Positions 35,832 through 56,460 of a stretch of 64,000 bases of DNA are shown here, in pieces. Position numbers and translations under genes: made by a program. The DNA lies in contig NZ_NBDP01000030.1 in NCBI RefSeq assembly GCF_004123845.1, positions 496,001 to 560,000 on the forward strand, in the 5' to 3' direction. The DNA comes from Allobosea sp. Tri-44 (GTDB taxonomy: Bacteria > Pseudomonadota > Alphaproteobacteria > Rhizobiales > Beijerinckiaceae). The first letter of the stretch is position 1. Every line of letters begins with the position of its first letter. The notes under the pieces were generated by a model that had not been told where the DNA came from, searched no databases, and was given only the letters and a program-made list of their open reading frames with translations.

Positions 35832-37349
35832 TCAGGCCTTGGCTGCGCGCGCGGTCACCAGCTTGCGGATGCCGCGCCGGGTCGAGCCGATCAGCGGAAA
35901 GAGCAGCAGCGCGAGGCCGATCGCCATCAGGCTCGCAACCAGCGCGTTCGACCAGAAGATCGAGAGCGAGCCCTGGCTGAAGATCATCGACTGGCGGAAG
36001 GCGTCCTCCGCCTTGTCGCCGATGACCATCGCCAGCACGAGCGGCGCGATCGGGTAATCGAGCTTCTTGAAGAGATAGCCGACGATGCCGAAGGCGAGCG
36101 CCAGCCAGATGTCGAACTGCTTGTTGCCGACGGTATAGGCGCCGATGAAGCAGACCACGACGATCACCGGACCGATGATCGAGAACGGAATGCGCAGGAT
36201 CGAGGCGAAGAGCGGCACCGTCGCGAGCACGACGATGACGGCGACGACATTGCCGAGATACATCGAGGCGATCAGGCCCCAGACGAAATCGGGCCGCTCG
36301 ACGAAGAGCATCGGGCCGGGGTTGAGGCCCCAGATCATCAGCCCGCCCATCATCACCGCAGCGGTCGCCGAACCCGGAATGCCGAGCGCCAGCATCGGCA
36401 GCATGGCGGCGGAGCCGGCGGCATGGTCGGCGGTCTCGGGCGAGATCACGCCCTCGGGCTCGCCCTTGCCGAACTTCTCCGGATTGCGCGAGGAACGCTT
36501 GGCCATGGCGTAGCTCATGAAGGAAGCGGCCGTCGGCCCGCCCGGCGTGATGCCCATCCAGATGCCGATGATGCTGGAGCGCAGCAGCGCGAACCAGTAG
36601 CGCGGCAGCTTCAGCGCGGTGGCGAGCACGTCGCGCGGACGCACCTTGGCCTTCACCCCGTCGAAGCGTAAGCCCTCCTCCATCGTCTGCAGCAGTTCGC
36701 CGAGGCCGAACAGGCCGATCACCGCGATCAGGAAGCTGACGCCCGCAAGCAGCACGTCGAACTCATAGGTCAGGCGGACATTGCCCGAGACCGAATCCAT
36801 GCCGATCGAGGCGAAGGCAAAGCCCATCGCCATCGAGACGATGGTCTTCAGGGGCGAGGCGCCGCCGAGGCCGACAAAGCTGGCGAAAGTCATGAAATAC
36901 ACCGCGAAATACTCTGGCGAGGAGAACTTCAGCGCAAAGCGCGCGACCCAGCCCGAGAGCAGCGTGATCAGGATGACGCCGGCCATGGCGCCGATGCCGG
37001 CCGAGAGGAAGGCGAAGGAAAGCGCCTCCGTCGCCCTGCCCTGCTTGGCCATCGGATGGCCGTCGAAGGTGGTGGCGACCGAGGACGGCTCGCCCGGGAT
37101 GTTGAACAGGATCGAGGTAGTCGAGCCGCCGAACAGCGCCCCCCAATAGAGCGAGGTCAAAAGGATGATCGCCGAGACCGGGTCCATGCTGAAGGTCAGC
37201 GGCAGCATCAGCGAGACGCCGTTCGGCGCCCCAAGGCCCGGCAGCACGCCGACCAGGATACCGAGCAGCACGCCAGCGAACATCAGCGCGACATGATGAG
37301 CAGTCAGCGCGACCTCGAAGCCGTGGAGGAGCGAAGCGAAGTTTTCCAT
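35832..37349 (-). CDS. tctA: Tripartite tricarboxylate transporter, large permease TctA
   Basis: A 505-residue polytopic protein with about 12 membrane segments. TctA hallmarks are GVLPGLGAPNGVSLMLPLTF near residue 35, and the conserved loop ISPETADHAAGSAAMLP followed by GIPGSATAAVMMGGLMI near residue 310. Together with TctB and the binding protein TctC it forms an ion-driven uptake system for carboxylates. The gap to tctB is 21 bp. Confidence 0.92.
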   Translation of the reverse strand: MENFASLLHGFEVALTAHHVALMFAGVLLGILVGVLPGLGAPNGVSLMLPLTFSMDPVSAIILLTSLYWGALFGGSTTSILFNIPGEPSSVATTFDGHPMAKQGRATEALSFAFLSAGIGAMAGVILITLLSGWVARFALKFSSPEYFAVYFMTFASFVGLGGASPLKTIVSMAMGFAFASIGMDSVSGNVRLTYEFDVLLAGVSFLIAVIGLFGLGELLQTMEEGLRFDGVKAKVRPRDVLATALKLPRYWFALLRSSIIGIWMGITPGGPTAASFMSYAMAKRSSRNPEKFGKGEPEGVISPETADHAAGSAAMLPMLALGIPGSATAAVMMGGLMIWGLNPGPMLFVERPDFVWGLIASMYLGNVVAVIVVLATVPLFASILRIPFSIIGPVIVVVCFIGAYTVGNKQFDIWLALAFGIVGYLFKKLDYPIAPLVLAMVIGDKAEDAFRQSMIFSQGSLSIFWSNALVASLMAIGLALLLFPLIGSTRRGIRKLVTARAAKA

Positions 37350-37370
37350 GGAGGGCTCCGGCTCGCTGGT

Positions 37371-37859
37371 TCAGAGGCCGAGCATCGCTTCGACCGGCCC
37401 TTTGAGCAGGCCGACCTGGGCGAATTTCTCGAGGCCGAGATAGAAGAAGGCAGCAGTGCCGATCGCCGTCGCGACCGAGGGCAGCCAGCCATAGCGGCCC
37501 TGGAAGCGCATCGCGAAAACGAGGTAGAGCAGCATCGCGACATACATGCCGAGCGTCACGCTGAGCACGACGAAGGCAAGCATCGGCACGAAGAAGGAGA
37601 GGACGCGCTTGCCCTGCTCCTTGTCGAGGATGATTCCGGCGAGCGCCGCCGAGCCCCCCATCCGTCGGCCTATCGTGGTCGCGATCGTGCCGAGGCTGGC
37701 GAGTGCGATCAGCAAACCGCAATAGAACGGGAAGGCGCCGGGCTGCGGGCCGGAGGAATCCCAGCCAAGGCCGAATTCGCGGGCGCCATTGACGATCACG
37801 AGCCCGAAGGCGAGCGTCGCCAGCGCTGTCGCGATCTCGGCCTGGAAGCGGCTGATCAT
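37371..37859 (-). CDS. tctB: Tripartite tricarboxylate transporter, small permease TctB
   Basis: A 162-residue protein with four predicted membrane segments, the expected TctB form. The second segment lies near residues 40-60, and the paired last helices contain FVVLSVTLGMYVAMLLYLV. It is the weakly conserved small membrane subunit of the TctABC carrier. The assignment rests on size, topology and its place between tctC and tctA. Confidence 0.88.
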   Translation of the reverse strand: MISRFQAEIATALATLAFGLVIVNGAREFGLGWDSSGPQPGAFPFYCGLLIALASLGTIATTIGRRMGGSAALAGIILDKEQGKRVLSFFVPMLAFVVLSVTLGMYVAMLLYLVFAMRFQGRYGWLPSVATAIGTAAFFYLGLEKFAQVGLLKGPVEAMLGL

Positions 37860-37893
37860 CGGCGCTCTCCTGAATGCTGACGGTGTTCCGAAC

Positions 37894-37931
37894 GATCATC
37901 CCGGGCCGAGCAGCGCTCGCCCGGGATGATC
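37894..37931 (-). repeat. Strong hairpin between tctC and tctB
   Basis: A 12-bp perfect arm (37894-37905 with 37920-37931) continues after a one-base bulge into CGAG/CTCG around the loop CAGCG. It starts 19 nt past the tctC stop, inside the operon. It may protect the tctC message or partly stop transcription, giving more binding protein than permease. Confidence 0.7.
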
Positions 37932-37950
37932 CGATTTCGACCTGTTCGGG

Positions 37951-38946
37951 TCAGTTCACGACCCAGCCTTCGTTCTTGAAGACCTTGGCGTTGGCGGCCT
38001 CGTCCTTGGCGACGAACTCGGTGAGCTCCTTGCCCTTCATGAAGCGGGCGGTCTGCGCGGTGCGGGCAATGAACTCAGCCCATTCCGGCGTCTTGCTTAC
38101 CTTCTCCATGACGTCGGCATAGTAGGCGACGGCGTCAGCCGGAACCTCGGCCGGCAGCCAGACGGTGCGCGGCATCTGGAAGGCTTCGAGCGGCAGGCCC
38201 GCTTCCTTGCAAGTCGGGATGTCGCCCCAGCCCTTGCCGTCATGGATCGGGTCGCTCTTGGCGAGGCGCACCGGCGAGAAGACGCAGAGCGGCTTCACCT
38301 GGCCGGCCTTCCACTGGCCGATGTTCTCGTTCGGGTTGTTGGTGTTGGAATCGACATGCCCGCCGGCGAGCTGGGTCGCAGCCGCGCCACCACCCTGGAA
38401 GGGCACGTAGATCCATTTGGCGCCGGTCGCCTCCTGGATCATCGCGGTCAGCGTCTGGTCGGTATCCTTGGACTGGCTGCCGGCCATCTTGAAGCTGCCG
38501 GGCTTGGCCTTGGCCGCCTCGACATAGGCCTTGGCGTCGTTGAAGGGCGCGTCGCCCTTGACCCAGATCAGGAACTCGTCGAGCGCCAGCGCCGAGACCG
38601 GCGTCAGGTCGGAGAGCTTGTAGCCGAGCTTGGCGACATAGGGCAGCAGATAAGCGTTGTTGGTGCCGAAGACGACCTTGTGGGCATCGCCCTTGGCGCC
38701 CTTGCCGTAGATGTAGCCCTCGGCGCCGCTGCCGCCGCCCTTGTTGAGCACCACGACCGGCTGCTCGATGAGCTTGTGCTTGGCGATGATCGACTGGACG
38801 ATGCGGGCGAAATTGTCGGTGCCGCCGCCGGGCCCCGAGGTCACGACGAACTCGACCGACTTGGTCGGCTGCCAGGCTGCGGCCGGAACCACCGCGGCAA
38901 TGACGGAGGCAAGGGCAGCGCCCGCTGCAATGCAGAAACGTTTCAT
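37951..38946 (-). CDS. tctC: Tripartite transporter substrate-binding protein TctC (Bug family)
   Basis: A 331-residue periplasmic binding protein with an N-terminal signal peptide (MKRFCIAAGAALASV, with cleavage expected near AAA-WQ at about residue 25). The Bug fold motif SGPGGGTDNFAR is near residue 40, and ALDEFLIWVKGDAPF is characteristic. The start at 38946 has GGGAG upstream. A longer frame to 38994 would bury the signal. The ligand should be the carboxylate handled by the PdxA-like and DapA-like enzymes. Confidence 0.9.
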   Translation of the reverse strand: MKRFCIAAGAALASVIAAVVPAAAWQPTKSVEFVVTSGPGGGTDNFARIVQSIIAKHKLIEQPVVVLNKGGGSGAEGYIYGKGAKGDAHKVVFGTNNAYLLPYVAKLGYKLSDLTPVSALALDEFLIWVKGDAPFNDAKAYVEAAKAKPGSFKMAGSQSKDTDQTLTAMIQEATGAKWIYVPFQGGGAAATQLAGGHVDSNTNNPNENIGQWKAGQVKPLCVFSPVRLAKSDPIHDGKGWGDIPTCKEAGLPLEAFQMPRTVWLPAEVPADAVAYYADVMEKVSKTPEWAEFIARTAQTARFMKGKELTEFVAKDEAANAKVFKNEGWVVN

Positions 38947-39017
38947 GCTGTTTCTCCCTGGATGATTGTTTGGAAACGGGGCGCGGCTCTTCACGGCCGC
39001 TCTGCCGGGATTTTGGT

Positions 39018-40052
39018 TCAGGCGGCCTTGCGCGCCGCCTTGCCCTCGCTCGCCATCCTGATCGCGAGCGACAGCGCCGCGCGGGTGGCGCCAAGATTGG
39101 CGATGCCCTTGCCGGCAATCTCGTAGGCCGTGCCATGGGCCGGCGTGCAGATCGGGAACGGGAAGCCACCGATCAGCGTGACGCCGCGGTCGAAGCCCAT
39201 CAGCTTCATCGCGATCTGGCCCTGGTCATGGTACATGGTCAGCACCGCGTCGAAATCGCCATTCCTGGCACGCAGGAACACCGTATCCGACGGGAACGGC
39301 CCCTCGACCACGTAGCCCTTGGCCTTCGCCGCCTTCACCGCCGGCTCGATCACGTCGATCTCGTCGCGGCCGAAATTGCCGCCGTCGCCGGCATGAGGAT
39401 TGATGCCGGCCACAGCGATGCGCGGCGGGTTGAAGCCGGCGGCGCGCAGGTTCCGGTCAGCCAAGTCGAGCGCACGCAGGATGCGCTCCTGGGTGATGTT
39501 TTGAGCGACCTCCGAGAGCGGGATATGCGAGGTGACGCGGGCGTTCCAGAGCTTGTCCAGCACGTTGAATTCGCTGGCCGGCCCCTCGAATGCAATCGCG
39601 TCCCGCACGAAGCGAATCTCGTCGTCATAGCCGGGATAGGCGAAGCGCATCGCCGCCTTGTTGAAGGGGGTGAAGAACACTGCATCGGCCCTGCCGGATG
39701 CAGCAAGACGCAGCGCGCGGCGGAAATTGTCGGTCGCGGCCTTGCCACCGGCGAGTGTTGCCTTGCCGCGCTGGAGGTCGGCCGGATCGTGGTTCTTCAG
39801 GTCGACGAAGACCGCCTTTCCGGCATCGACCGGCAGGGCATCGCCCTCGCCCACAACATGCAGATCGGGCTTCAGGCCGGCATCGTCGGCGCCGAGCTGG
39901 AACAGGCGATAGTCGCCGAAGACGACATAACGAGCAGCTTTGCTGAGATCGGGCTCGGCCAGGATGCGGGCGGTGAGCTCGGGGCTGATGCCGGAGGGGT
40001 CGCCCAGGGCGACCGCGATCACCGGCAAGGAAGCCTGCGCCTTGATGTCCAT
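39018..40052 (-). CDS. PdxA-family 4-phosphohydroxyacid dehydrogenase (PdxA2-like)
   Basis: A 344-residue metal- and NAD-dependent oxidative decarboxylase of the PdxA family. The three metal-binding His lie in TSHIPLSEV, NPHAGDGGNFGRDE and MYHDQGQIAMK, and GDPSGISPE marks the N-terminus. Its operon place with TctABC and a DapA-like enzyme suggests the catabolic PdxA2 role (for example 4-phospho-D-erythronate type substrates) rather than vitamin B6 synthesis. However, no DUF1537 kinase accompanies it. ATG 40052 follows GGGAGGACGAG. It is the first gene of a six-gene leftward operon. Confidence 0.85.
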   Translation of the reverse strand: MDIKAQASLPVIAVALGDPSGISPELTARILAEPDLSKAARYVVFGDYRLFQLGADDAGLKPDLHVVGEGDALPVDAGKAVFVDLKNHDPADLQRGKATLAGGKAATDNFRRALRLAASGRADAVFFTPFNKAAMRFAYPGYDDEIRFVRDAIAFEGPASEFNVLDKLWNARVTSHIPLSEVAQNITQERILRALDLADRNLRAAGFNPPRIAVAGINPHAGDGGNFGRDEIDVIEPAVKAAKAKGYVVEGPFPSDTVFLRARNGDFDAVLTMYHDQGQIAMKLMGFDRGVTLIGGFPFPICTPAHGTAYEIAGKGIANLGATRAALSLAIRMASEGKAARKAA

Positions 40053-40124
40053 CTCGTCCTCCCGACGCCAGCCGCAGCCGGTTGCTTGCCGCTGGCCTAT
40101 CATGGGGGGCGTCGCGAAAGCAAG

Positions 40125-40142
40125 TATGCTGTATGCAGCATA
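40125..40142. promoter_or_regulatory. Candidate GntR operator between pdxA-like and gntR genes
   Basis: TATGCTG (40125-40131) and CAGCATA (40136-40142) are perfect 7-bp inverse complements around TATG. The site is 73 bp upstream of the pdxA-like start and 151 bp from the regulator start, well placed to control both. It fits the TGTATGCA-like centre common in FadR/VanR-type GntR sites. Confidence 0.6.
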
Positions 40143-40293
40143 ACCTAACTGCACTACCCTGCTGCGAGCCTGGTGGCGGCCTCACCTGTCCACAGGCGGG
40201 GCCGCCACCAGCCGGGAAGGCCACGTCGCAGCCGGACCGCTCGCGTTGACAGCGCGGAAGCACCATGCCGTACAGATACAAAGGAGAGCCGCG

Positions 40294-40980
40294 ATGACGA
40301 ACGAGGCCGGCATGTCGAGCGAGGCGCAGGACGTCTATCCGCGCATCACGCGCCGCACCCTGCACGAGGAGGTGCTCGAGCGGCTGCGCGACATGATCAT
40401 CGAGGGCAGGCTGGCGCCCGGACAGCGCATCAACGAAGGCGCCGTCGGCGCGCAGCTCGGCGTCTCGCGCACACCGCTGCGCGAGGCGATCAAGACCCTG
40501 GCGAGCGAGGGCCTCGTCGAGATCCAGCCGGCGAAGGGCGCCGTCGTCCGCAAGTTCTCGGCGCATGACCTGCTGCAGATCCTCGAAGTGCTGAAGACGC
40601 TGGAGCAGCTCGGCGGGCGGATGACCTGCGCGCAAGCGAGCGACGAGGCCATCGCCGCGATCAAGGCGATGCATGACGAGATGATGGAGCTCTACCGGGT
40701 CCGCAACCGGCTCGATTATTTCAAGCTCAACCAGGCGATCCACAGCGCCATCGTCACCGCTTCAGGCAATAACGTGCTGGTCGAGATGCACGGCACGCTG
40801 CAGGCCAGGATCAAGCGCCTGCGCTTCATCGGCAATGAAGGCCCGGAGAAATGGGCCGGCGCCGTGGCCGAGCACGAGGAGATGATCGAGGCCCTGCTGA
40901 AGCGCGACGGCGACGCGCTCGCCGTGATCATCGGCAAGCACATGGATTCGACGCTGGTGCGCGTGCGCGACGTGCTCTGA
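40294..40980 (+). CDS. GntR-family (FCD) regulator of the adjacent catabolic operon
   Basis: A 228-residue FadR-subfamily GntR protein. The winged helix is at residues about 22-90 (GAQLGVSRTPLREAIKTLASEGLV). The FCD ligand domain has the metal-binding residues in HSAIVTASGNN and KHMDSTL. ATG 40294 follows AAGGAGAGCCGCG. It diverges from the pdxA-tctCBA-macro-dapA operon and is likely its substrate-responsive repressor. Inference rests on gene order and the inverted repeat. Confidence 0.87.
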   Translation: MTNEAGMSSEAQDVYPRITRRTLHEEVLERLRDMIIEGRLAPGQRINEGAVGAQLGVSRTPLREAIKTLASEGLVEIQPAKGAVVRKFSAHDLLQILEVLKTLEQLGGRMTCAQASDEAIAAIKAMHDEMMELYRVRNRLDYFKLNQAIHSAIVTASGNNVLVEMHGTLQARIKRLRFIGNEGPEKWAGAVAEHEEMIEALLKRDGDALAVIIGKHMDSTLVRVRDVL

Positions 40981-41139: not shown

Positions 41140-41202
41140 TTTACCAAATATTGCCTTCAGGCAACCTGGTTTCCGAAGACTTCGATGTCGAGGGACGCGC
41201 TC

Positions 41203-44501
<3,299 letters not shown>

Positions 44502-46107: not shown

Positions 46108-46563
46108 TCAATGCTGGCCGGCTGGCGCGGAGGCCGCGATCGGCGCGGACGCCGGTTCGCCCTCCAGCGGGGCGATTCCATGCTCCACGTCGGAAGCGGC
46201 CTCGCCGCCGCGGCCCGGCGCGATACCGGCGATTTTCTCGAGCGCGCCTGCCATGCGGCTGAACATGCCGGAGAAGTCGGGAACGTCGATCAGAGCGAGC
46301 AGCAGGCCGATCACCCAGAACAGATGCACATGCGTGAACAAAGCGAGCAGCCCGAGCACGGCGACGATCTCGAATTGCAGCTTGTGGGATTTATGCGCGA
46401 TGCGCTCCGGCAAGGTATGCAGGCGCAGGAAGAGCAGGCCGATGCCCAGCACGGCGCCGATCAGGATGACCGCCGCGGCCACCATCAGATAATCCGTGCC
46501 GCCCGGATCGGTGATGAATGCCGGCAGGTGATGCGGCGCCACCGGGTGAGCCTGGTCAGCCAT
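46108..46563 (-). CDS. Two-TM inner membrane protein partnered with the HlyD gene
   Basis: A 151-residue protein with two predicted membrane helices (residues about 22-46 and 63-93) and a long Ala/Pro/Glu-rich cytosolic or periplasmic tail. The start 46563 follows GGGGGGATGAT. A longer frame to 46626 exists without support. The stop lies 12 bp before the HlyD start, so the two genes are co-transcribed. Function unknown. It resembles the small membrane partner found with YibH-type adaptors in topology only. Confidence 0.7.
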   Translation of the reverse strand: MADQAHPVAPHHLPAFITDPGGTDYLMVAAAVILIGAVLGIGLLFLRLHTLPERIAHKSHKLQFEIVAVLGLLALFTHVHLFWVIGLLLALIDVPDFSGMFSRMAGALEKIAGIAPGRGGEAASDVEHGIAPLEGEPASAPIAASAPAGQH

Positions 46564-46717
46564 ATCATCCCCCCGGATCGATCGACGACGTAGAGGCAGG
46601 TGACTGGCAATTCGAGCCAGAGTCAACTCGCTTCGCCCAGACCGACGCCAGGCGCCTTGACAGGCAGCCAGCCCTCGCTTCCGCTATCGGCAAGAAGCCG
46701 GCGAGGAAACGCCATCC

Positions 46718-47632
46718 ATGCTCACGTTGCGCCAGATCGAGGTGATCCGGGCGATCATGATCACCGGCACGATCGCCGGCGCGGCCAAGCTGCTCAACGT
46801 CTCGGCGCCCGGCATCAGCCGCTTGATGAAGCACACCGAGCGGACGCTCCGCCTCAAGCTGTTCGACCGCCGGCACGGGCGCTATGTGCCGACGCCGGAA
46901 GCCAAGGACATCTTCGAGCAGATCAACGGCGTCTACCGCAAGGTCGACGACCTGCACTCGATGCTGGCCCGGATCGAGCGCGGCGGCGATGTCGAGTTCA
47001 AACTCGGCTCGGTGCCGAGCATCTGCCATGTCATGGTGCCGCGCGCGATCGAGCGCCTCAGGCGCAAGCATCCCGACCTGCGCATCGATATCAACATCCT
47101 GAAGATCGAGGAGGCGCTGGATTATCTCCTGCTCGGCAAGGGCGAGATCGTGGCGATGAGCTACAAGCTCGATCATCCAGGGCTGGACTTCATGCCCTTG
47201 GCGATGGGTGAGCTGCTCTGCATCGTCCCGCAGAACCACGCACTCGCCGGCCGCACCAGCATCTCGGCCCGAGAGATCGTCACGCATCAGTTGATCGGCA
47301 TCGACCCGAACGATCCCTATGGCCGAATCATGAGCGAGATCTTCGAGCGCCAGAAGCTCCGCTACGACATGGCGATCAAGGCACGTTTCGGGACAACGGT
47401 CTGCACGCTGGTCCGGGCCGGCCTTGGCATCGCCATCATCGACCAGTTCACCGTGGCGCACGGCTCGATGCAGGGGATCGTCACCATCCCGATCGAGGAG
47501 CCGACCCATTTCCAGACCTATGTCGCGATGAAGAACGACAAGGCTCTCTCGCTCTACGCCGAAACCTTCGTCCGCCTGCTGCGCGAGGAAATGACTGCCG
47601 TCGTTTCAACAAGGGTTGTGGCAGAAAGATAA
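46718..47632 (+). CDS. LysR-family regulator, probable activator of the shikimate operon
   Basis: A 304-residue LTTR with the winged helix at residues about 3-62 (TGTIAGAAKLLNVSAPGISR) and an effector domain from about residue 90 (SVPSICHVMVPRAIE). The form resembles NocR/OccR-type regulators. It lies directly upstream of, and co-directional with, the shikimate dehydrogenase-ABC-quiC operon. Two copies of a 13-bp motif lie between its stop codon and the next gene. Control of that operon by an aromatic-precursor ligand is inferred from gene order and motif. Confidence 0.87.
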   Translation: MLTLRQIEVIRAIMITGTIAGAAKLLNVSAPGISRLMKHTERTLRLKLFDRRHGRYVPTPEAKDIFEQINGVYRKVDDLHSMLARIERGGDVEFKLGSVPSICHVMVPRAIERLRRKHPDLRIDINILKIEEALDYLLLGKGEIVAMSYKLDHPGLDFMPLAMGELLCIVPQNHALAGRTSISAREIVTHQLIGIDPNDPYGRIMSEIFERQKLRYDMAIKARFGTTVCTLVRAGLGIAIIDQFTVAHGSMQGIVTIPIEEPTHFQTYVAMKNDKALSLYAETFVRLLREEMTAVVSTRVVAER

Positions 47633-47642
47633 CATCAGGTTA
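47630..47642 (+). promoter_or_regulatory. 13-bp motif copy 1 (TARCWTCAGGYTA)
   Basis: TAACATCAGGTTA is a 4-bp inverted repeat (TAAC/GTTA) around ATCAG. It overlaps the LysR stop codon. A near copy lies 47 bp further on. Confidence 0.55.
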
Positions 47643-47688
47643 GGCTGTAGCGACGAATTGGTTATCGCGTTACGGCTGCAAATCGGTT

Positions 47689-47701
47689 TAGCTTCAGGCT
47701 A
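47689..47701 (+). promoter_or_regulatory. 13-bp motif copy 2 (TARCWTCAGGYTA)
   Basis: TAGCTTCAGGCTA is part of a 5-bp inverted repeat (TTAGC/GCTAA, 47688-47702). It matches copy 1 at 10 of 13 positions, and the two changes in the arms (A-to-G, T-to-C) are complementary, preserving symmetry. The centres are 59 bp apart, and the site is 101 bp before the shikimate dehydrogenase start. Confidence 0.55.
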
Positions 47702-47801
47702 ATGCGCAAGCCTGCCGAGACGGACGCCAACTAAAAGTAAGAGGCGGATTCACCGATCATGCTGATTCAGCCTGACCGGATCCGGCTCCAGAGGGAGTGG
47801 A

Positions 47802-48686
47802 ATGTCGACCATCGTCACCGCCAAGAAGAGCAAACGCGTCCTGCTCGGGCTGCTCGGCTCGCCGATCGCGCATTCGGCAACGCCAGCGGCGCAGGAAGCG
47901 GCGGCGCGTGCCGCCGGCATCGAGGCGCACTACCATCTGATCGAGGTCGCCGGCGCAGGGCGCGACGATCTCGTCGCCATGCTCGACGGCATCCGCCGGC
48001 TCGGCTTCTCCGGCATCAACGTGACCTACCCTTACAAGGAAGCGGTCCTGCCGCTGCTCGACGGGCTGTCCGACCAGGCCGCCGCGATGGGCGCGGTCAA
48101 CACCATCGTCGTCGACGGCGGAAAACTGACCGGCCACAACACCGACGCCACCGGCTTCGCCACCGCCTATCGACGGCTCGGCCGCCAGGATGGCGACAAG
48201 CCGGTCGCGATCATCGGCGCGGGCGGCGTCGGCAAGGCCATCGCCTTCGCGCTCGCCGGCAGCGGCGTCAGTCGCCTCAGGCTCTACGACACCGATCGCA
48301 GCAAGGCAGAAGCACTCGCGGCCGCCCTGGGCACACGCGTTGAGACCGTGATCTCCGACAGCGCCGAGGCTGCGGCCGAGGGAGCCGCGGGCATCGTCAA
48401 CGGCACGCCGATCGGCATGCTGCCGGACCGTGGCATCCCGATCGCGGCGGACGCGATCCTTGCGTCGCAATGGGTCGGGGACGCGGTCTATCACCCGCTC
48501 TTTACTCCGCTGCTGAAAGCGGCGCAAAAGGCCGGCGCCACCGTGATGACCGGGCGCGAGCTCGCAGTCCATCAGGGCGTCGACGCCTTCCGGTTGTTCA
48601 CCGGGCTGGAGGTTTCGGAGGCAGTCATCGGCGCGGCATTCGACGCCGTGATCGCGGCGCGCGAAGGCGCCCAAGTAGCCGCCTGA
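47802..48686 (+). CDS. Shikimate/quinate dehydrogenase, probably NAD-dependent and catabolic
   Basis: A 294-residue AroE-family enzyme. The catalytic Lys is in NVTYPYKEAV and the Asp in HNTDATGF. The dinucleotide loop is GAGGVGKAIAF. At the end of the second strand the sequence reads RLYDTDRSKAEALA. It lacks the Asn-Arg-Thr basic patch of NADPH-dependent biosynthetic AroE and carries an Asp as in NAD-dependent YdiB/QsuD. This, together with the downstream dehydroshikimate dehydratase and importer, points to oxidation of shikimate or quinate for growth. Biosynthesis remains possible only if no other aroE exists in the genome. Confidence 0.88.
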   Translation: MSTIVTAKKSKRVLLGLLGSPIAHSATPAAQEAAARAAGIEAHYHLIEVAGAGRDDLVAMLDGIRRLGFSGINVTYPYKEAVLPLLDGLSDQAAAMGAVNTIVVDGGKLTGHNTDATGFATAYRRLGRQDGDKPVAIIGAGGVGKAIAFALAGSGVSRLRLYDTDRSKAEALAAALGTRVETVISDSAEAAAEGAAGIVNGTPIGMLPDRGIPIAADAILASQWVGDAVYHPLFTPLLKAAQKAGATVMTGRELAVHQGVDAFRLFTGLEVSEAVIGAAFDAVIAAREGAQVAA

Positions 48687-48751
48687 GCACGACGACCCGG
48701 ATATCACCGGGCGGGGATCAAGAAACGACAAGACGAGTGGAGGGAACGAAA

Positions 48752-49888
48752 ATGAAAAAGCACTGGATCATCGCCGCCGCGCTCGGCATGGCTGTCAGCC
48801 TGCCGGCGCTGGCGCAGGACAAGGTCAAGCTGGTCGACGTCGTCGAGCTCTCGGGCGCAGGCGCGACCGCCGGCACCAACTGGAAGAACGGCATCGACCT
48901 CGCCGTCGCCGACATCAACGCCAAGGGCGGCATCCTCGGCAAGCAGATCGAGATCGTCCATTACGACACCCAGACCAATCCGGGTAACACCCGCGCCGCC
49001 GTGCAGCGCGCCATCGACGAGGGCACCTATGCCGTGCTCGGCCCGGTCTTCTCCGGCCCGATCGGCGCCTCCATGCAGATCGCCCAGCGCGCTGAAATCG
49101 CTCAGATCGTCGGCGGCGAGGCGGCTGGCCTGACCAAGCAGGGCAACGAATACCTGTTCCGCACCTCGCTCAGCCAGAGCGCGGCGATGCCCAAGATCGC
49201 CAAATACCTGAAGGAGACGGTCAAGGCCGGCTCGGTCGCGGTCGTCTGGGTCAACAACGACTTCGGCAAGGGCGGGCGCGACGCGATCATCCCCGAGCTC
49301 GAGAAGGCCGGCATCAAGCTCGCGGTCGACGTCTCGACCGAGCAGGGCCAGGCCGACTTCGCCGCCGACGCGATCAAGGTCAAGAATTCGAACGCCGACG
49401 CAATCTTCGTTTATCTGAACGAGGAGGAGAGCGCCCGCTTCCTGCGCGCCGCCAAGCAGCAGGGCATCACCAAGCCGATGGTCGGCGAGACGACGCTACT
49501 CGGATCGAAGGTGATCGAGCTTGCGGGCGATGCGGCCAATGGCGTCAAGGGCCATGTCGGCCTCTCGATCGACGCGCCGATCCCGGCCTTCCAGGAGTTC
49601 GGCAAGAAGTTCCAGGCCAAGTACAACTACGCCTCCGACCATAACGGCCTGAAGGGCTACATGGCCGTCCACATGATCAAGTGGGCGACCGAGAAGCAGA
49701 AGAAATTCGACAAGAAGGGCGTCGCCGACACGCTGCGCGGCGCGACGATCAAGACCTCGGAAGAGCCGGGCATCCTGATCGAGACCACCGTCGAGAAGAA
49801 CGGCGACCTCGACCGCGAGAGCTTCCTCGCCGAGGTCAAGGACGGCAAGCAGGTGATCACGGCGACGCTGCCGAAGATCAACCCGTAA
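48752..49888 (+). CDS. ABC transporter periplasmic binding protein (LivJ-type), probable shikimate/quinate
   Basis: A 378-residue type I periplasmic binding protein with a signal peptide (hydrophobic residues 5-20, cleavage near ALA-QDK). Family motifs include AVADINAKGGILGKQIEIV and the hinge region VAVVWVNNDFGKGG. ATG 48752 follows GGAGGGAACGAAA. Branched-chain-type importers often carry aromatic acids in soil bacteria. The operon's shikimate and dehydroshikimate enzymes suggest that ligand here. Confidence 0.88.
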   Translation: MKKHWIIAAALGMAVSLPALAQDKVKLVDVVELSGAGATAGTNWKNGIDLAVADINAKGGILGKQIEIVHYDTQTNPGNTRAAVQRAIDEGTYAVLGPVFSGPIGASMQIAQRAEIAQIVGGEAAGLTKQGNEYLFRTSLSQSAAMPKIAKYLKETVKAGSVAVVWVNNDFGKGGRDAIIPELEKAGIKLAVDVSTEQGQADFAADAIKVKNSNADAIFVYLNEEESARFLRAAKQQGITKPMVGETTLLGSKVIELAGDAANGVKGHVGLSIDAPIPAFQEFGKKFQAKYNYASDHNGLKGYMAVHMIKWATEKQKKFDKKGVADTLRGATIKTSEEPGILIETTVEKNGDLDRESFLAEVKDGKQVITATLPKINP

Positions 49889-49898
49889 CAGGCGCGTC

Positions 49899-49969
49899 AT
49901 TCTCGGGCGGCGCGACGCGCCGACCCGAGAATCTCGATATCCAGAGATGGTCGGGTCAGCCCCGACCAT
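49899..49969. repeat. Tandem hairpins between binding-protein and permease genes
   Basis: Hairpin 1 pairs ATTCTCGGG (49899-49907) with CCCGAGAAT (49924-49932) and extends inward by about six more pairs. Hairpin 2 pairs ATGGTCGGG (49947-49955) with CCCGACCAT (49961-49969) around TCAGC. The layout resembles a two-unit REP/BIME element and lies directly after the SBP stop codon. Confidence 0.75.
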
Positions 49970-49998
49970 GACGCTCAACGCACCGAGCGAGCAAAGCC

Positions 49999-50877
49999 AT
50001 GGCCGAATTCCTCGCCTACCTCATCGCCGGCATCGCCACGGGCGCGATCTATGCCCTGGCCGCGATCGGCTTCACCTTGGTCTGGCAGACCTCGCAGACG
50101 ATCAATTTCGCCCAGGGCGAGTTCGTCATGCTGCCGGCCGTGTTGGTCCTGCTCGCGATCAAGCTCTTCGGCGCGCCGATCTGGCTCGGCGCCCTGATCG
50201 GCATCGCCGCCTTCATCCTGATCTTCGGCGTCGGCTTCAAGCTCGCCGTGGTCGACCCGATGATCCGGCACGGCGTATTGCCGCTCGCCATCGCCACCAT
50301 GGCGCTGTCGATCATCATGAAGGAAGGCGCCAAGGACGGCTTCTCGGCCGAGGCGCAGAAATTCCCCTCCTTCGTCCCGACCGAGACGATCTCGGTGTTC
50401 GGCGCGGCGATCTCGCTGCAGCATGTCGCGATCATCGCGGTTGCGTTCGCGGTCATCGGCCTGCTGCAATGGTTCGTCGGCAGCACCCGCCTTGGCCGCC
50501 AGATGCAGGCGACCGCGCAGAACCCGACGGTGGCGCGCATCCTCGGCATCCCGGTCGAGCGCATGGTGCTGCTGACCTTCGTGATCAACGCGGCCCTCGC
50601 CGTGGTCGCCTCGGTGCTGATCTCGCCGATCTATCTGGCAAAGTTCTCGAATGGCGAGGTGATTGGCCTGTTCGCCTTCATCGCGGCGATCGTCGGCGGC
50701 TTCAACCAGGTCCGCGGCGCCCTTGTCGGCGGACTGATCGTCGGCATCGTCGACAGCATGGCCGCCGCCTACATCTCGACCTCCTACCGGCTCGCGGTAC
50801 CGCTCGTGCTCCTGGTCATCGTCATCCTCGTCAAGCCGGAAGGCCTGATGGGCCGCAAAGAGGAGCGCCGGGTATGA
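49999..50877 (+). CDS. ABC transporter permease (LivH-type)
   Basis: A 292-residue inner-membrane permease with about eight helices. FTLVWQTSQTINFAQGEF near residue 25 is the LivH signature, and the coupling-helix region is RQMQATAQNPTVARILGIP. The last four bases overlap the next permease start (ATGA). It pairs with the LivM-type subunit. Confidence 0.92.
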   Translation: MAEFLAYLIAGIATGAIYALAAIGFTLVWQTSQTINFAQGEFVMLPAVLVLLAIKLFGAPIWLGALIGIAAFILIFGVGFKLAVVDPMIRHGVLPLAIATMALSIIMKEGAKDGFSAEAQKFPSFVPTETISVFGAAISLQHVAIIAVAFAVIGLLQWFVGSTRLGRQMQATAQNPTVARILGIPVERMVLLTFVINAALAVVASVLISPIYLAKFSNGEVIGLFAFIAAIVGGFNQVRGALVGGLIVGIVDSMAAAYISTSYRLAVPLVLLVIVILVKPEGLMGRKEERRV

Positions 50878-51887
50878 CCGCGCCCGCAACCCACAGTGCC
50901 GCCCCGGCAGCGCGCCGCCTGCCGCTGCCCACCTTCGTCGACGGCACGCTGCTGACGCTGGTCGCCGCCGCGGTCATCCTCTGGTTCGCTCCATCAGGCA
51001 TGGGCCGCTACGGCACCTATGTGCTCTCGCTCTGGCTGGTGATGAGCGTCGCCGTGATGGGCCTCAACCTGACGCTCGGCTATGCCGGCCTGAAGTCGCT
51101 GGCCCAGGCCGCCTTCATGGGCATCGGCGCCTATGCGACGGCGCTGCTCACCAGCAAGGTCGGGCTGAACTGGTACGCCTCCTTTGCGATCTCTGGCCTG
51201 CTCACCTTCGCGGTCGGGCTCGTGCTCGGCTTCCCGGCGCTCAGGGTCAAGGCGCACTACCTAGCCTTCGTCACCCTCGCCTTCTCGACGCTCATCTGGC
51301 TCGTTCTGCGCAATGAGCAATGGCTGACCGGCGGCGTCTTCGGTCTCTCCAACATCCCGCGGCCGAGCTTCTTCGGCCTCAAGCTCGACGGGGCGCTTGC
51401 CTTCCACCGCTTCGTCGTGGTCGTCACCTTCCTGCTCGCGGCTGTGCTCTGGTGGATGATCCGTTCGCCCTGGGGCCGCGCCTTTACGGCGCTGCGCGAG
51501 AACCCCATCCGTGCCGCGAGTCTGGGCATCGACACCCGCATGTACACGCTGCTCGCCTTCGCGATCGGCTCGGCCTATGCCGGCTTTGCCGGCGCGCTCT
51601 ATGCGCCACTCGTCGAGTTCATCGACCCCTCGCCCTTCTCGCTGTCACAGAGCTTCTTCCTGCTGCTGATGGTGGTCGCAGGCGGCGCCGGCTATCTGCT
51701 CGGGCCCTTCATCGGGGCGCTGCTTGGCGTCGTGCTGCCGGAATGGCTGCGCTTTGCCGGCTCGCTCTACCTGATCATCTTCGCGGCGATCGTCATGCTG
51801 CTGCTGATCGCCTGCCCGCAAGGCATGAGCGGCCTGCTCGAACGCGGCTGGGCCAAGCTCACCGGCAAGAAGGAGGGCGCGCGATGA
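50874..51887 (+). CDS. ABC transporter permease (LivM-type)
   Basis: A 337-residue permease of the LivM family. Typical segments are LNLTLGYAGLKSLAQAAFMGIG near residue 60 and SPWGRAFTALRENPIRAASLGID near 205, which contacts the ATPases. The start overlaps the LivH stop and the end overlaps the LivG start, both as ATGA, indicating translational coupling. Confidence 0.92.
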   Translation: MTAPATHSAAPAARRLPLPTFVDGTLLTLVAAAVILWFAPSGMGRYGTYVLSLWLVMSVAVMGLNLTLGYAGLKSLAQAAFMGIGAYATALLTSKVGLNWYASFAISGLLTFAVGLVLGFPALRVKAHYLAFVTLAFSTLIWLVLRNEQWLTGGVFGLSNIPRPSFFGLKLDGALAFHRFVVVVTFLLAAVLWWMIRSPWGRAFTALRENPIRAASLGIDTRMYTLLAFAIGSAYAGFAGALYAPLVEFIDPSPFSLSQSFFLLLMVVAGGAGYLLGPFIGALLGVVLPEWLRFAGSLYLIIFAAIVMLLLIACPQGMSGLLERGWAKLTGKKEGAR

Positions 51888-52627
51888 ACCAGGTCCTCGA
51901 AGTCTCGAACCTCCACAAGGCCTTCGGCGGCATCAAGGCGGTGAACGGCGTCTCCTTCAAGGTCAACGAAGGCGAGATCCTCGGCATCATCGGCCCGAAC
52001 GGTTGCGGCAAGTCGACCCTGTTCAACTGCATCCTCGGCCAGCTCGAGCCGACCGAGGGCGCGGTGAAGCTCGACGGGCGCGACGTCACCAACATGCGCC
52101 CCTCCGAGCTCAACCGGCTCGGCGTCAGCCGCACCTTCCAGCTGCTGCAGGTCTTCCCCGAGCTCTCGGTGCGCGAAAACCTGATCCTCGCCGGCCAGGA
52201 GCACGAAGGCACGATGCTCTCGCGCTTCTTCGGGTCGCGCGATGCCGGGCTGACGGCAAAGGCCGAGCAGATGATCGGCTTCTTCAAGCTCGGCCATCTC
52301 GCCGACGCCAAGGCCGGCGGCCTGTCCTATGGCCAGCAGAAGCTGCTCGACGCCGCCATGGCCTTCATGGCGGGCCCGCGCCTCGTCCTGCTCGACGAGC
52401 CGGCCGGCGGCGTCAACCTGACCATGCTCGGCGACCTCAAGGAGCGCCTGCGCGCCATCAATGCCGAGCAGGGCGCGACCTTCGTGGTGATCGAGCACAA
52501 CATGGATTTCGTGATGTCGCTGTGCTCGCGCGTCATCGTGCTGGCCGAGGGCAAGGTCCTGGCCGAGGGCACGCCGGCCGAGGTCCGCGCCAATCCGGCA
52601 GTCATCGAAGCTTATCTGGGGCACTGA
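51884..52627 (+). CDS. ABC transporter ATPase (LivG-type)
   Basis: A 247-residue ATP-binding subunit. Walker A is GPNGCGKST, the signature is LSYGQQK, Walker B is LVLLDEP and the switch His lies in IEHNMD. AGGVNL after Walker B is the LivG D-loop. It is separated from the LivF gene by a 210-bp palindromic element, the only large gap in the permease-ATPase block. Confidence 0.93.
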   Translation: MNQVLEVSNLHKAFGGIKAVNGVSFKVNEGEILGIIGPNGCGKSTLFNCILGQLEPTEGAVKLDGRDVTNMRPSELNRLGVSRTFQLLQVFPELSVRENLILAGQEHEGTMLSRFFGSRDAGLTAKAEQMIGFFKLGHLADAKAGGLSYGQQKLLDAAMAFMAGPRLVLLDEPAGGVNLTMLGDLKERLRAINAEQGATFVVIEHNMDFVMSLCSRVIVLAEGKVLAEGTPAEVRANPAVIEAYLGH

Positions 52628-52676
52628 CATGCACGGCCGCGTCAGCAACACCTCGCCATCGGTCGGCCTTGCTCCT

Positions 52677-52802
52677 CTCTCCCCCCTTGTGGGGGAGAGC
52701 TGGAGAGGGGGGTATGCCACCCTCGGCGACGGACCAGTCAGCCACCTCCAACTCTGCGACCTCGATACCCCCCTCCCAACCCTCCCCCACAAGGAGGGAG
52801 GG
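52677..52802. repeat. Compound palindromic element inside the ABC operon
   Basis: A first hairpin (CTCTCCCCC 52677-52685 with GGGGGAGAG 52691-52699) is followed by GGGGGGTAT (52707-52715), which pairs with ATACCCCCC (52765-52773). A second unit of opposite orientation, rich in CCCTCCCCC, ends near 52802. The CTTGTGGGG core is typical of REP-like intergenic elements in Rhizobiales. It occupies most of the gap between the ATPase genes. Confidence 0.78.
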
Positions 52803-52837
52803 CTCCCGCGGTTCCTCGCATCGAAGGGAAGCCGGCC

Positions 52838-53575
52838 ATGACCACCCCCATCCTGGAACTCGACGGCGTAGTCGGCGGCTACGGCGCCATGACCATCCTC
52901 AACGGCACGACCTTCAAGGTGCCGCGCGCCGCGATCACCACGGTCATCGGCCCGAACGGCGCCGGCAAGTCCACCGTGTTCAAGGCGATTTTCGGCCTGC
53001 TCAAGGTGCGCGAGGGCCATATCCGGCTGGAAGGCCGGGAGATCACCAACTGGAACCAGCGCAAGCTGCTCGAAGCCGGCATCTGCTACGTGCCGCAGGG
53101 CCGCAACATCTTCCCCGAGCTCTCGGTGCGCCACAATATCGAGCTCGGAGCGGTCGCGGCCGGCAACCAGATCACCGATATGCCAAAGCGCATCGAGGCG
53201 GCCCTCGACCGCTTCCCGTCACTGCGCGCCAAGGCCGACGTCCAGGCTTCGACGCTCTCCGGCGGCCAGCAGAAGCAGCTCGAGATCGTGCGCGGGCTAC
53301 TGCTCGACCCCAAGCTGGTACTGATCGACGAGCCCTCGATCGGCCTCTCGCCGATGCTGGTGCAGGAGACCTTCGACATCCTGAAGGAGTTGCGCGCCAA
53401 GGGCGTCACCATCCTGATGATCGAGCAGAACGCCCGCTCGGCGCTGGAAATCTCCGACGAAGGCCTGGTGCTGGAGCTCGGCCAGACCCGCATGCAGGGC
53501 CCGGCAGCGGACATTCTCGCCGACCCCCGCGTCGCCCAACTCTTCCTCGGCGGCGCGATGACGGAAGCGGCCTGA
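52838..53575 (+). CDS. ABC transporter ATPase (LivF-type)
   Basis: A 245-residue ATP-binding subunit. Walker A is GPNGAGKST, the LivF-type Q-loop is YVPQGRNIFPELSV, the signature is LSGGQQK, Walker B is LVLIDEP and the switch is IEQNA. It completes the LivH-M-G-F importer and sits 3 bp before the quiC-like gene. Confidence 0.93.
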   Translation: MTTPILELDGVVGGYGAMTILNGTTFKVPRAAITTVIGPNGAGKSTVFKAIFGLLKVREGHIRLEGREITNWNQRKLLEAGICYVPQGRNIFPELSVRHNIELGAVAAGNQITDMPKRIEAALDRFPSLRAKADVQASTLSGGQQKQLEIVRGLLLDPKLVLIDEPSIGLSPMLVQETFDILKELRAKGVTILMIEQNARSALEISDEGLVLELGQTRMQGPAADILADPRVAQLFLGGAMTEAA

Positions 53576-53578
53576 ACC

Positions 53579-55474
53579 ATGAACCCGACCTCGATCGCCA
53601 CCGTCTCGCTCTCCGGCGATCTCGCCGACAAGCTGCAGGCCATCGCCGCAGCCGGCTTCGACGGGGTCGAGGTCTTCGAGAACGACTTCCTGACCTTCGA
53701 CGGCAATCCGCGCGATGTCGGCAGGATGATCGCCGATCTCGGCCTCGCCATCGTTGCCTTCCAGCCCTTCCGTGATTTCGAGGGCATGCCGGAGCCGCTG
53801 CGCACACGCACCTTCGAGCGGGCGCGGCGCAAATTCGAGCTGATGAACGAGCTCGGCGCCGGGTTGATGCTGATCTGCTCGAACGTCTCGCCGCAATCGC
53901 TGGGCGGCATCGACCGTGCGGCCCACGATCTCAGCGAGCTCGGCGACCTCGCCGGCAAGCATGACGTGCGCGTCGGCTTCGAGGCCTTGGCCTGGGGCAA
54001 GCACGTCAACGATTATCGCGACGCCTGGGAGATCGTGCGCCGGGCGAACCATGAGCGCATCGGCCTGATCCTCGATTCCTTCCACACGCTGGCGCGGCGC
54101 TCGCCGCTGGAGCCGATCGCCTCGATCCCCGGCGACCGGATCGAGCTGGTCCAGCTCGCCGATGCCCCGCTGCTCGACATGGACGTGCTGAGCTGGAGCC
54201 GGCATTTCCGCAACTTCCCCGGCCAGGGTGACCTGCCCGTCGCCGATTTCCTCCGAGCGGTCGAGGCGACCGGCTATTGCGGCCCGCTCTCGCTCGAGAT
54301 CTTCAACGACCAGTTCCGCGCCGGCTCGGCCAAGCGCGTCGCGGTCGATGGCCTGCGCTCGCTGATCCAACTCGCCGACCAGACGGCTCGGCTGAACAAT
54401 CCCGCGAAGGCCGAGATACCGGACCGCGCGCCGCTGCTTGGCGTCGAGTTCATCGAATTCGCGCTGGACGAGGAACCGGCGCAAGCGCTGACCGCGCTGT
54501 TCTCGGCGCTCGGCTTCCACAGAAGCGGCGAGCACCGCAGCAAGGCGGTGACGCGCTGGAGCCAGGGCGGCATCAACCTGATCGTCAACACCGAGAAGGA
54601 CGGCTTCGCTCAGTCGCATGCGATCATGCACGGACCCGGCGTCTGCGCACTGGCGCTGCGGGTCGCCGATGTCGCGGCGACGATGGCGCGCGCCCGAGCG
54701 CTGAAGGACACGACCTTCGAGCAGCGTGTCGCGCCTGGTGAGATGGAAATCCCGGCGATCCGCGGCGTCGGCGGCAGCCTGATCTACTTCACCGAACCGC
54801 GCCCGGATGGCGCCCAGAGCTGGCATGACGACTTCATCGCGATCGACGGCAGCAGCAGCGCCCCTGCCCTGCTCACCGACGTCGACCATATCTCGCAGTC
54901 GATGGACTATGACGAGATGCTGTCCTGGCTCTTGTTCTACACCTCGCTCTTTGCGCTCGACCGCATCCCGCAGCTCGCCATTGCCGATCCCGCCGGGCTG
55001 GTGCAGAGCCGGCCGCTGGTCGCTGCGAATGGCTCGGTCCGCCTCATCCTCAACGGCTCGCAGGCGACGCGGACACTGTCCTCGCGTTTCGTCTCTGAGC
55101 ATTTCGGCTCGGGCGTGCAGCACATCGCCTTCACCTCGCCGGACATCTTCGCGGCCGTGACCGCGATGCGCGCCGCCGGGCTCGATTTCCTCGATATCCC
55201 CGAGAACTATTACGACGACCTGGAGGCCCGCTACGGGCTGGAGCCGGCCTTCCTCGACCGGCTGCGCGAGCACCACATCCTCTATGACCGCGACGGCGAA
55301 GCCGAGTTCCTGCAGGTCTACACCCACGTCTTCGCGCAGCGCTTCTTCTTCGAGATCGTCGAGCGGCGCGGTGGCTATGGCGGGTTCGGCGCGGTCAATG
55401 CGCCGGTGCGGCTGGCAGCGCAGGCGCGCGAGGCGCGGCCCGTGACGGTGCCGCGCCCGCTGCACGACGACTAG
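53579..55474 (+). CDS. quiC1: Two-domain 3-dehydroshikimate dehydratase (QuiC1 type)
   Basis: A 631-residue fusion. Residues about 1-270 are a xylose-isomerase-like TIM barrel, with metal residues in the GFDGVEVFEND, RVGFEAL and LSLEIFND strands, and carry the dehydratase activity in known QuiC1 enzymes. Residues about 290-610 resemble 4-hydroxyphenylpyruvate dioxygenase, with the metal His in LTDVDHIS and VQHIAFTSPDI and the Glu in FFFEIVERRGG. The TIM barrel converts 3-dehydroshikimate to protocatechuate. With the dehydrogenase and importer upstream it completes a shikimate/quinate-to-protocatechuate route. Its last 4 bp overlap the convergent oxidoreductase gene. Confidence 0.9.
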   Translation: MNPTSIATVSLSGDLADKLQAIAAAGFDGVEVFENDFLTFDGNPRDVGRMIADLGLAIVAFQPFRDFEGMPEPLRTRTFERARRKFELMNELGAGLMLICSNVSPQSLGGIDRAAHDLSELGDLAGKHDVRVGFEALAWGKHVNDYRDAWEIVRRANHERIGLILDSFHTLARRSPLEPIASIPGDRIELVQLADAPLLDMDVLSWSRHFRNFPGQGDLPVADFLRAVEATGYCGPLSLEIFNDQFRAGSAKRVAVDGLRSLIQLADQTARLNNPAKAEIPDRAPLLGVEFIEFALDEEPAQALTALFSALGFHRSGEHRSKAVTRWSQGGINLIVNTEKDGFAQSHAIMHGPGVCALALRVADVAATMARARALKDTTFEQRVAPGEMEIPAIRGVGGSLIYFTEPRPDGAQSWHDDFIAIDGSSSAPALLTDVDHISQSMDYDEMLSWLLFYTSLFALDRIPQLAIADPAGLVQSRPLVAANGSVRLILNGSQATRTLSSRFVSEHFGSGVQHIAFTSPDIFAAVTAMRAAGLDFLDIPENYYDDLEARYGLEPAFLDRLREHHILYDRDGEAEFLQVYTHVFAQRFFFEIVERRGGYGGFGAVNAPVRLAAQAREARPVTVPRPLHDD

Positions 55475-56460
55475 CTCGTCACCACGACCTTGCCCACGGC
55501 GCGGCCGCTCTCGACCACCTCATGCGCCTGCGCGACCTGATCGAGTGGGAAGCGCGCGGCGATCTCGTGGCTGAGCCAACCGTCTCGTAACCCGTCACCG
55601 ATCGCGGTTGCAGCGGCATCATGCGCGGCCGCATCCATGACATAGACGAGGACGAAGCGGATCGTCGCATCGAGCGTGATCAGAGGCCAGAACGGCAGCG
55701 CCGGCTCGGGCTTCGCATCGGAAGCATAGGTCGCAACCACACCGCGCGGCGCCAGCACCCGCATGGTCAGATCGAGATTGGCGCCGAAAGCGACCTCGAC
55801 GATGCGATCGACACCACGTTCCTTGCCGGTGAACTCGCGAATGCGTGCCGCCAGATCGTCGGAGAGGCGGTTGAGCACGAGATCGGCGCCCGCCGCCTTG
55901 GCGGAGCGCGCCTGCTCCTCGCGGCTGACGGTCGTGATCACCCGCGCCCCGCCCTGTTTGGCGAACTGGACGGCGTAGCGACCGACCGCGCCGGCACCGC
56001 CGGTAATGAGCACGACCTTGCCGGCAACCGGCCCATCCGCGAAGACGCAGCGATGCGCCGTCATCGCCGGCACGCCGAGGCAGGCTCCTTCCTCAAAGGA
56101 GACGCCAGCCGGCAAGGGCTGCACCTGCCGCGCCGGCAGCGCGACATAGCCCGCCGCTCCGCCGAAGGGCCGGCCGAGCGACGCCTCATAGAACCAGACA
56201 CGCTCGCCAACACGGCTCTCCAGCTCGGGCGAGCCGACAGCCACGACCTCGCCGGCGCCGTCCTGGTGCGGGATGATCAATGGAAACGGCATCTGGTCGC
56301 GGCCGAGCCAGCCGGCGCGGCCCTTCCAGTCCGACGGGTTGATGCCACTGGCGCGGACCCTGATCAGCAATTCGCCCGGCCCGGCGACTGGCTGAGGCTG
56401 CTCGCCGACCTGCAGGACCTCACTCGCCGGCCCCTTGCGTTCATACCATGCTGCCTTCAT
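55471..56460 (-). CDS. NADPH:quinone reductase-like MDR oxidoreductase
   Basis: A 329-residue zinc-free MDR with the nucleotide motif ITGGAGAVGRYAVQFAKQGGA (about residues 150-170). The N-terminus GINPSDWKGR and PHQDGAGEV fits quinone oxidoreductase/zeta-crystallin. The start at 56460 is preferred because AGGA lies 9 nt upstream. ATG 56466 adds two residues. It diverges from an HxlR-type regulator over an 82-88-bp gap, an arrangement typical of redox-responsive qor loci. Confidence 0.87.
   Translation of the reverse strand: MKAAWYERKGPASEVLQVGEQPQPVAGPGELLIRVRASGINPSDWKGRAGWLGRDQMPFPLIIPHQDGAGEVVAVGSPELESRVGERVWFYEASLGRPFGGAAGYVALPARQVQPLPAGVSFEEGACLGVPAMTAHRCVFADGPVAGKVVLITGGAGAVGRYAVQFAKQGGARVITTVSREEQARSAKAAGADLVLNRLSDDLAARIREFTGKERGVDRIVEVAFGANLDLTMRVLAPRGVVATYASDAKPEPALPFWPLITLDATIRFVLVYVMDAAAHDAAATAIGDGLRDGWLSHEIAARFPLDQVAQAHEVVESGRAVGKVVVTS

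Follow-up and report, generated by a model that had tools for sequence, protein, structure and literature searches.

A Liv-type ABC importer linked to a predicted shikimate utilisation operon in a Bosea-like genome

Which substrate is carried by an importer built like those for branched-chain amino acids when its genes stand between a shikimate dehydrogenase-type gene and a 3-dehydroshikimate dehydratase-type gene? The question is raised by eight genes, all on the + strand, at positions 46718-55474 of the window, by which we mean the whole 64,000-nt stretch analysed here (C1:496001-560000 of the 6.05-Mb, 76-contig genome of Allobosea sp. Tri-44). The host genome is Bosea-like, its closest named relatives among the matches listed being Boseaceae bacterium BT-24-1, Bosea lupini and further records of the Bosea type, in which AroE is 83-97% identical. 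Plants commonly contain the acids shikimate and quinate, and the initial annotation had described these genes, within the same limits, as a self-contained operon for shikimate and quinate uptake and catabolism. The answer that we judge probable is that this is a LysR-controlled operon for external shikimate, which is imported by an ATP-binding cassette (ABC) system and converted to dehydroshikimate and then to protocatechuate.

Gene families were assigned with Pfam and NCBIfam profiles, which, together with the coordinates, confirmed the eight co-directional genes. In the proposed pathway, the substrate-binding protein (SBP; 48752-49888, Peripla_BP_6), which is of the Liv/HAAT type and a predicted shikimate binder, would capture shikimate, and possibly 3-dehydroshikimate too, in the periplasm. 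The captured shikimate would be imported with ATP by LivHMGF, that is, the permeases LivH (49999-50877) and LivM (50874-51887), both with BPD_transp_2, and the ATPases LivG (51884-52627, ABC_tran and BCA_ABC_TP_C) and LivF (52838-53575, ABC_tran), with which the make-up of a HAAT importer is complete. A QsuD-like shikimate dehydrogenase of the AroE family (47802-48686, Shikimate_dh_N) would then turn shikimate into 3-dehydroshikimate, probably with NAD, and a QuiC1-type 3-dehydroshikimate dehydratase (53579-55474), in which a TIM barrel is fused to an HPPD-like domain, would take water from it to give protocatechuate, whose ring would be opened by the products of pca genes on another contig. 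The LysR-type regulator (46718-47632, HTH_1 and LysR_substrate), acting at a palindrome before aroE, would activate the operon in response to a pathway compound. The chemistry of this pathway is established; the SBP-LivHMGF system is a well-supported candidate for an undescribed family of ABC-type shikimate uptake.

Linkage of the importer to the shikimate pathway

We used the SBP alone as a query (match at E 1e-60 or better) in two overlapping samples, and found matches in 12 of 385 genomes of the class sample and in 14 of 398 genomes of the phylum sample. Pooled, these comprise 26 loci in 22 genomes, and the flanks of every locus were examined over about 10 kb in both directions (less at contig ends; L174, L177 and L183 are short). 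The controls were the 20 highest-ranked of the other Liv SBPs in a permissive search of 14 of these genomes, and quiC was counted only above 150 bits. Near the 26 SBP loci, quiC was present at 17, an aroE-type gene at 17, either of them at 20 and pcaG or pcaH at five, whereas each of these counts was 0/20 in the controls. For quiC or aroE, the difference by locus (20/26 versus 0/20) has a Fisher P of 4e-8 and that by genus (11/14 versus 0/11) a P of 8e-5; eight of the 26 loci belong to a single genus (g41) of Bradyrhizobium-type genomes and do not count as independent. Among the AroE queries were types taken from plasmid loci of the SBP subfamily, a bias of which the quiC count alone (P 2e-6 by locus) is free. 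Left uncounted in the controls were weak matches, namely a 29% match to quiC (L204), pcaB-like matches (L202, L205 and L207) and a pcaD-like match (L208). In summary, the importer is tied to the shikimate pathway, which supports the earlier description of it as dedicated to that route.

A search for the same gene order in other genomes, as had been suggested, showed that lysR-aroE-SBP-livHMGF-quiC is kept in Bosea and Bradyrhizobium; the full set of eight is present, for example, in Bradyrhizobium sp. BTAi1 (L052). Among 80 loci picked through AroE similarity, so that the presence of aroE there is circular, 66 carry a window-type SBP, and 56 of those 66 also carry a clear quiC, which indicates that the arrangement is not due to chance. 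When only the 61 SBP loci whose sequence extends 6.5 kb or more past the SBP are taken, quiC is present in 56, the other five being L034, L047, L062 (a weaker match), L083 and L105 (which contains Ns). B. lupini (L034) and B. caraganae (L047) lack quiC beside livF, but the idea that this breaks their pathway was rejected, as each has a further quiC, 56-57% identical, elsewhere in its genome. Of the 66 loci, 27 also contain a Gfo/Idh/MocA gene; it lies between livF and quiC in six loci that were opened and after livF in L047, and could encode an alternative dehydrogenase; these loci lack AroQ, so that a role as quinate dehydrogenase is unsupported there.

Ten plasmid loci from Sinorhizobium, Rhizobium, Neorhizobium, Paracoccus and Massilia carry SBP orthologues (40-55%), with an aroE-type gene in nine and quiC in seven. 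Where present, the AroE of the Rhizobiaceae and Paracoccus plasmids is only 26-33% like that of the window, and its gene stands before the SBP gene or between livF and quiC; in three plasmid loci, the livF-quiC slot is occupied by an SMP-30/gluconolactonase gene. The genes aroE, SBP, livHMGF and pcaCHGB follow each other in G593, and G344 groups pca genes, lysR, aroE, the importer, a lactonase gene and quiC together. Five Rhizobiaceae-plasmid clusters (L128, L131, L133, L134 and L135) carry a LysR that is 59-64% identical. Hence, the importer remains constant while its AroE partner varies, which points to a common hydroaromatic substrate. A separate case is L099 (219-10882), from a Bradyrhizobium-type metagenome-assembled genome, in which the same enzyme as in the window goes with a different importer: a window-like AroE is found with a single-domain TIM barrel, a tripartite ATP-independent periplasmic (TRAP) importer, AroQ and a gene for a protocatechuate dioxygenase subunit.

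Enzymes, operator and setting of the operon

The best PDB sequence matches of the window AroE are 2nlo and 3jyo (208 bits), the quinate/shikimate dehydrogenase of C. glutamicum; YdiB (1npd) scores 119 bits and AroE (1nyt) 71 bits. The cofactor loop reads LYDTD, with an Asp, as opposed to VNRS in a second AroE of the biosynthetic type, encoded on contig C4 and 34% identical to that of the window. The QsuD-like loop proposed before was thus borne out, and the enzyme, judged by these sequence features, probably uses NAD and oxidises shikimate. We also considered whether the window dehydrogenase might be the sole AroE of the genome, which the initial annotation had named as a ground for refutation; this is ruled out by the C4 enzyme with its NRS loop. 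The window QuiC aligns with 5HMQ (QuiC1 of P. putida) over residues 4-620 (E 2.4e-184), and all ten of the active-site residues listed for the two-domain dehydratases QuiC1/QsuB in PMC7442255 are present, in agreement with a fused QuiC1-type enzyme. quiC is found in 21 of the 22 genomes bearing the SBP subfamily, and in a sample of 297 genomes of the order, 151 show no match to it. The HPPD-like domain (54434-55399, QuiC residues 286-607) retains H437, H515 and E592 at HPPD-aligned positions, presumably with a metal role. For the corresponding domain of QsuB, ring-cleaving activity was not found, according to PMC7442255. The cluster itself contains neither a dehydroquinase gene nor pca genes. 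On contig C23, pcaD-, pcaC-, pcaH- and pcaG-like genes stand in one row, the protocatechuate dioxygenase scoring 355 bits with TIGR02422; as these genes are on another contig, and as two relatives keep quiC elsewhere, the term self-contained does not hold.

The predicted LysR operator, TAACATCAGGTTA (47630-47642), overlaps the lysR stop codon and is a T-N11-A palindrome, the kind of site that LysR proteins bind, with the consensus TAACATNATGTTA. In the 6-Mb genome, the site before aroE is the only one within one mismatch of TAACATNATGTTA. At the same stringency, the palindrome is present in 60 of 64 Bosea and Bradyrhizobium loci, 44 of them perfect, and in eight of 30 other loci (L128, L131, L133, L134, L135, L178, L181 and L182), where it recurs in clusters whose AroEs differ from that of the window; it is missing from the remaining 22 loci scanned, and was not found near an orphan SBP paralogue (L166). 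It was also absent from 376 kb of control loci. The palindrome lies past the annotated lysR end in L131 and L135 and is offset from the stop codon in seven of the 64 loci, so that the stop codon does not explain it. The Bosea/Bradyrhizobium alignment contains a second conserved element, TTGGTTATCGCGTTA (47658-47672, + strand), which has one exact copy in the genome and two more with two mismatches, no more than a reversed-pattern control, and which was not found in the clusters of other lineages scanned. It may be an activation site or part of the promoter.

From lysR through quiC, the intergenic distances are 169, 65, 110, -4, -4, 210 and 3 nt. The 4-nt overlaps of livH/livM and livM/livG, the distance of just 3 nt from livF to quiC and a search for terminator-like sites that gave none on the + strand of 46500-55900 fit a single transcript from aroE onward; a search for sigma-70 type promoters in the same region gave none. 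The transcription unit is likely to run from aroE to quiC, with lysR ahead of the operator. The 210-nt gap between livG and livF (52628-52837) contains a 33-nt inverted repeat (52679-52711/52768-52800, 82%) and is nearly absent in the sister loci L034 and L035 and present in L033, a variability that makes it look like a mobile palindromic element within the operon. Elsewhere in the window, an Asp-Al_Ex exchanger gene adjoins an aminotransferase-family gene (41185-44501), a pair that we take to resemble aspartate-alanine exchanger/aspartate 4-decarboxylase (AspT/AspD). A second catabolic-looking group (34265-40980) has TctA, TctC and PdxA family genes by Pfam and, by eye, a DapA-family-like gene and a GntR-type regulator-like gene.

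Which substrate the importer carries

The SBP belongs to a discrete subfamily: among the matches listed in the permissive search of 14 genomes, 18 have at least 43% identity and none of the others exceeds 30%. In 38 aligned members, the position of LivJ Thr102 holds Glu (36) or Asp (two, the orphan paralogues), with one residue fewer before it, and that of LivJ Glu226 holds Thr (31), Val (five) or Ser (two); both LivJ residues presumably contact the amino acid. E226 of the window SBP is kept in 38/38 members and R229 in 37/38. An AlphaFold model (pLDDT 81, pTM 0.81) is LivJ/LivK-like, with aromatic-acid SBPs also among its top matches. The changed positions argue against an ordinary amino-acid binder, and the pocket does not name the ligand. 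One orphan SBP paralogue, 69% identical and without permeases (G000:C12:384991-386094, L166:8971-10098), adjoins a PEP_mutase-type gene and a GntR gene, and the one in the sister genome (G993:C22, L184) is followed by a DHDPS-family gene; such a protein may deliver a different ligand to the permeases of the operon.

Several observations weigh against shikimate import. Sequence and genome context are poor predictors of what Liv-type SBPs bind, as cautioned in PMC3223731, and R. leguminosarum reportedly takes up shikimate by the major facilitator superfamily (MFS) carrier RL4709 (PMC3333776). At six of the 26 subfamily loci (L166, L184, G505, G487, G042 and G147), quiC and aroE are both missing from the neighbourhood, L166 and L184 being the orphan paralogues in the window's genome and its sister genome. 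In Paracoccus L130, the importer adjoins pca genes, and aroE and quiC are absent within 10 kb. The G487 genome, 90% complete, is the one of the 22 without any quiC. The window AroE remains under the cut-off of the NAD quinate/shikimate model NF010631 (211 versus 515 bits) while it exceeds that of NF001319, the model for shikimate dehydrogenases in general (351.9 versus 252 bits), hence our wording QsuD-like. QuiC falls under the QuiC model NF042435 (698.8 versus 1200 bits), which is apparently tuned to a narrower group, and we therefore call the enzyme QuiC-type rather than a QuiC equivalog.

Quinate might be the substrate, alone or alike with shikimate, if the QsuD-like enzyme made 3-dehydroquinate and a distant AroQ bridged this to QuiC; the nearest solved relative of the window AroE is indeed named quinate/shikimate dehydrogenase, and the genome encodes two AroQ (contigs C23 and C56), a search of it for a type I dehydroquinase finding none. 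Quinate use by the dehydroshikimate route needs 3-dehydroquinate dehydratase. The 64-kb window has no AroQ, and of 101 Liv-type loci (66 + 10 + 25, in sets that overlap in part) only L173 has one, about 8 kb from the SBP, so that shikimate fits better and the quinate part of the initial annotation is not supported; as a distant AroQ could still serve, quinate only becomes less likely. AroQ also occurs in modules with other importers. On C23, AroQ has a Gfo/Idh/MocA gene directly behind it (the pair at L168:8981-10471), and next come an RpiR-type regulator and an ABC importer of the peptide type (SBP_bac_5). The C56 AroQ adjoins a TRAP importer and also a GntR gene. In four plasmid loci of Rhizobium and Shinella (L219-L222), picked from 170 records similar to the C23 Gfo protein and not including L168, which was found through AroQ, AroQ is next to the Gfo gene in 4/4, and the three that are annotated have, besides an ABC importer of the amino-acid type, a gene resembling shikimate dehydrogenase and either QuiC or a TIM barrel on its own. 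Among the AroE-found loci without a Liv SBP, AroQ occurs in two of 14, L079 and the TRAP-bearing L099. The AroQ-Gfo modules are candidate quinate modules, possibly with an undescribed type of quinate dehydrogenase, and seem separate from the Liv-type operon. We hold quinate import by the window system to be unlikely.

It is decidedly unlikely that the system imports protocatechuate or some other aromatic acid and only happens to stand beside a route that ends in the same product. PcaMNVWX, a HAAT importer under a LysR regulator, would be the model for this, and pcaGH near five of the 26 SBP loci and the Paracoccus L130 importer beside pca genes only are in its favour, but quiC or aroE is found at 20 of these loci, and no S. 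meliloti replicon is among the SBP matches listed at 40% or more, in a set that included pSymB of strain 1021. pcaM was not located in a pSymA stretch and one 45-kb pSymB stretch. A branched-chain amino-acid importer that lies in the operon by chance would have the families and fold seen here, those of LivJ/LivK and LivHMGF; against it stand the linkage of 20/26 versus 0/20, the gene order conserved in Bosea and Bradyrhizobium, the changes at the LivJ Thr102 and Glu226 positions and an operator common to clusters of other lineages, which together make it very improbable. Shikimate import, then, is the reading that we retain. A wider claim, for and against which we see about equal grounds, is that SBP-LivHMGF is the first recognised family of ABC-type shikimate importers, a discrete subfamily of HAAT systems found in Alphaproteobacteria (Massilia having one relative, of the SBP only), in which the substrate would have been kept, the LysR operator kept in several lineages and the dehydrogenase swapped repeatedly, separate AroQ-Gfo/Idh/MocA modules with their own importers serving for quinate.

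Comparison with known systems

Among the papers listed in searches of open-licence literature, none reports an ABC importer for shikimate or quinate, and the exact phrases 'shikimate ABC transporter' and 'quinate ABC transporter' do not occur in that literature. A screen of R. palustris SBPs used a ligand library that included shikimic and quinic acid, neither of which reportedly supported growth of R. palustris, and bore out few of the Liv-type SBP predictions (PMC3223731). If the operon works as proposed, a binding-protein-dependent importer with its predicted operator would account for the scavenging of shikimate at low levels by bacteria of soil and roots; importers labelled 'branched-chain amino acid' in such clusters could be re-annotated, and a sensor/transporter pair would be at hand for biotechnology.

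In C. glutamicum, qsuABCD is a quinate/shikimate utilisation operon under the LysR-type QsuR, with uptake credited to QsuA and ShiA (PMC11258901). It resembles the window in its two-domain dehydratase (QsuB), its LysR regulator and its QsuD-like dehydrogenase, and differs in that QsuR is divergent to qsuA, whereas the window lysR is co-directional. The quinate transporter QsuA and, in strain R, the carrier ShiA are both MFS carriers, whereas the window has an ABC importer. RL4709 of R. leguminosarum reportedly takes up shikimate in a related member of the order, but is a single MFS carrier and not an ABC system, and the same species is reported to take up protocatechuate by a TRAP system (PMC3333776). 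PcaMNVWX of S. meliloti and R. leguminosarum, described in PMC4495286 as a HAAT importer for protocatechuate under PcaQ, is like the importer of the window in being a HAAT-family ABC importer for a ring acid, LysR-controlled and leading into the same lower pathway; it differs in its substrate, and the available part of that source describes no aroE/quiC link for it. The AroQ-Gfo/Idh/MocA clusters with an amino-acid-type ABC importer (for example R. johnstonii pRL11, L221) share with the window an ABC importer, a gene of the shikimate-dehydrogenase kind, either QuiC or a TIM barrel alone, and dioxygenase or pca genes in the neighbourhood, but have another ABC class (by product names), other regulators and AroQ. 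These clusters are probably the quinate counterpart of the window operon.

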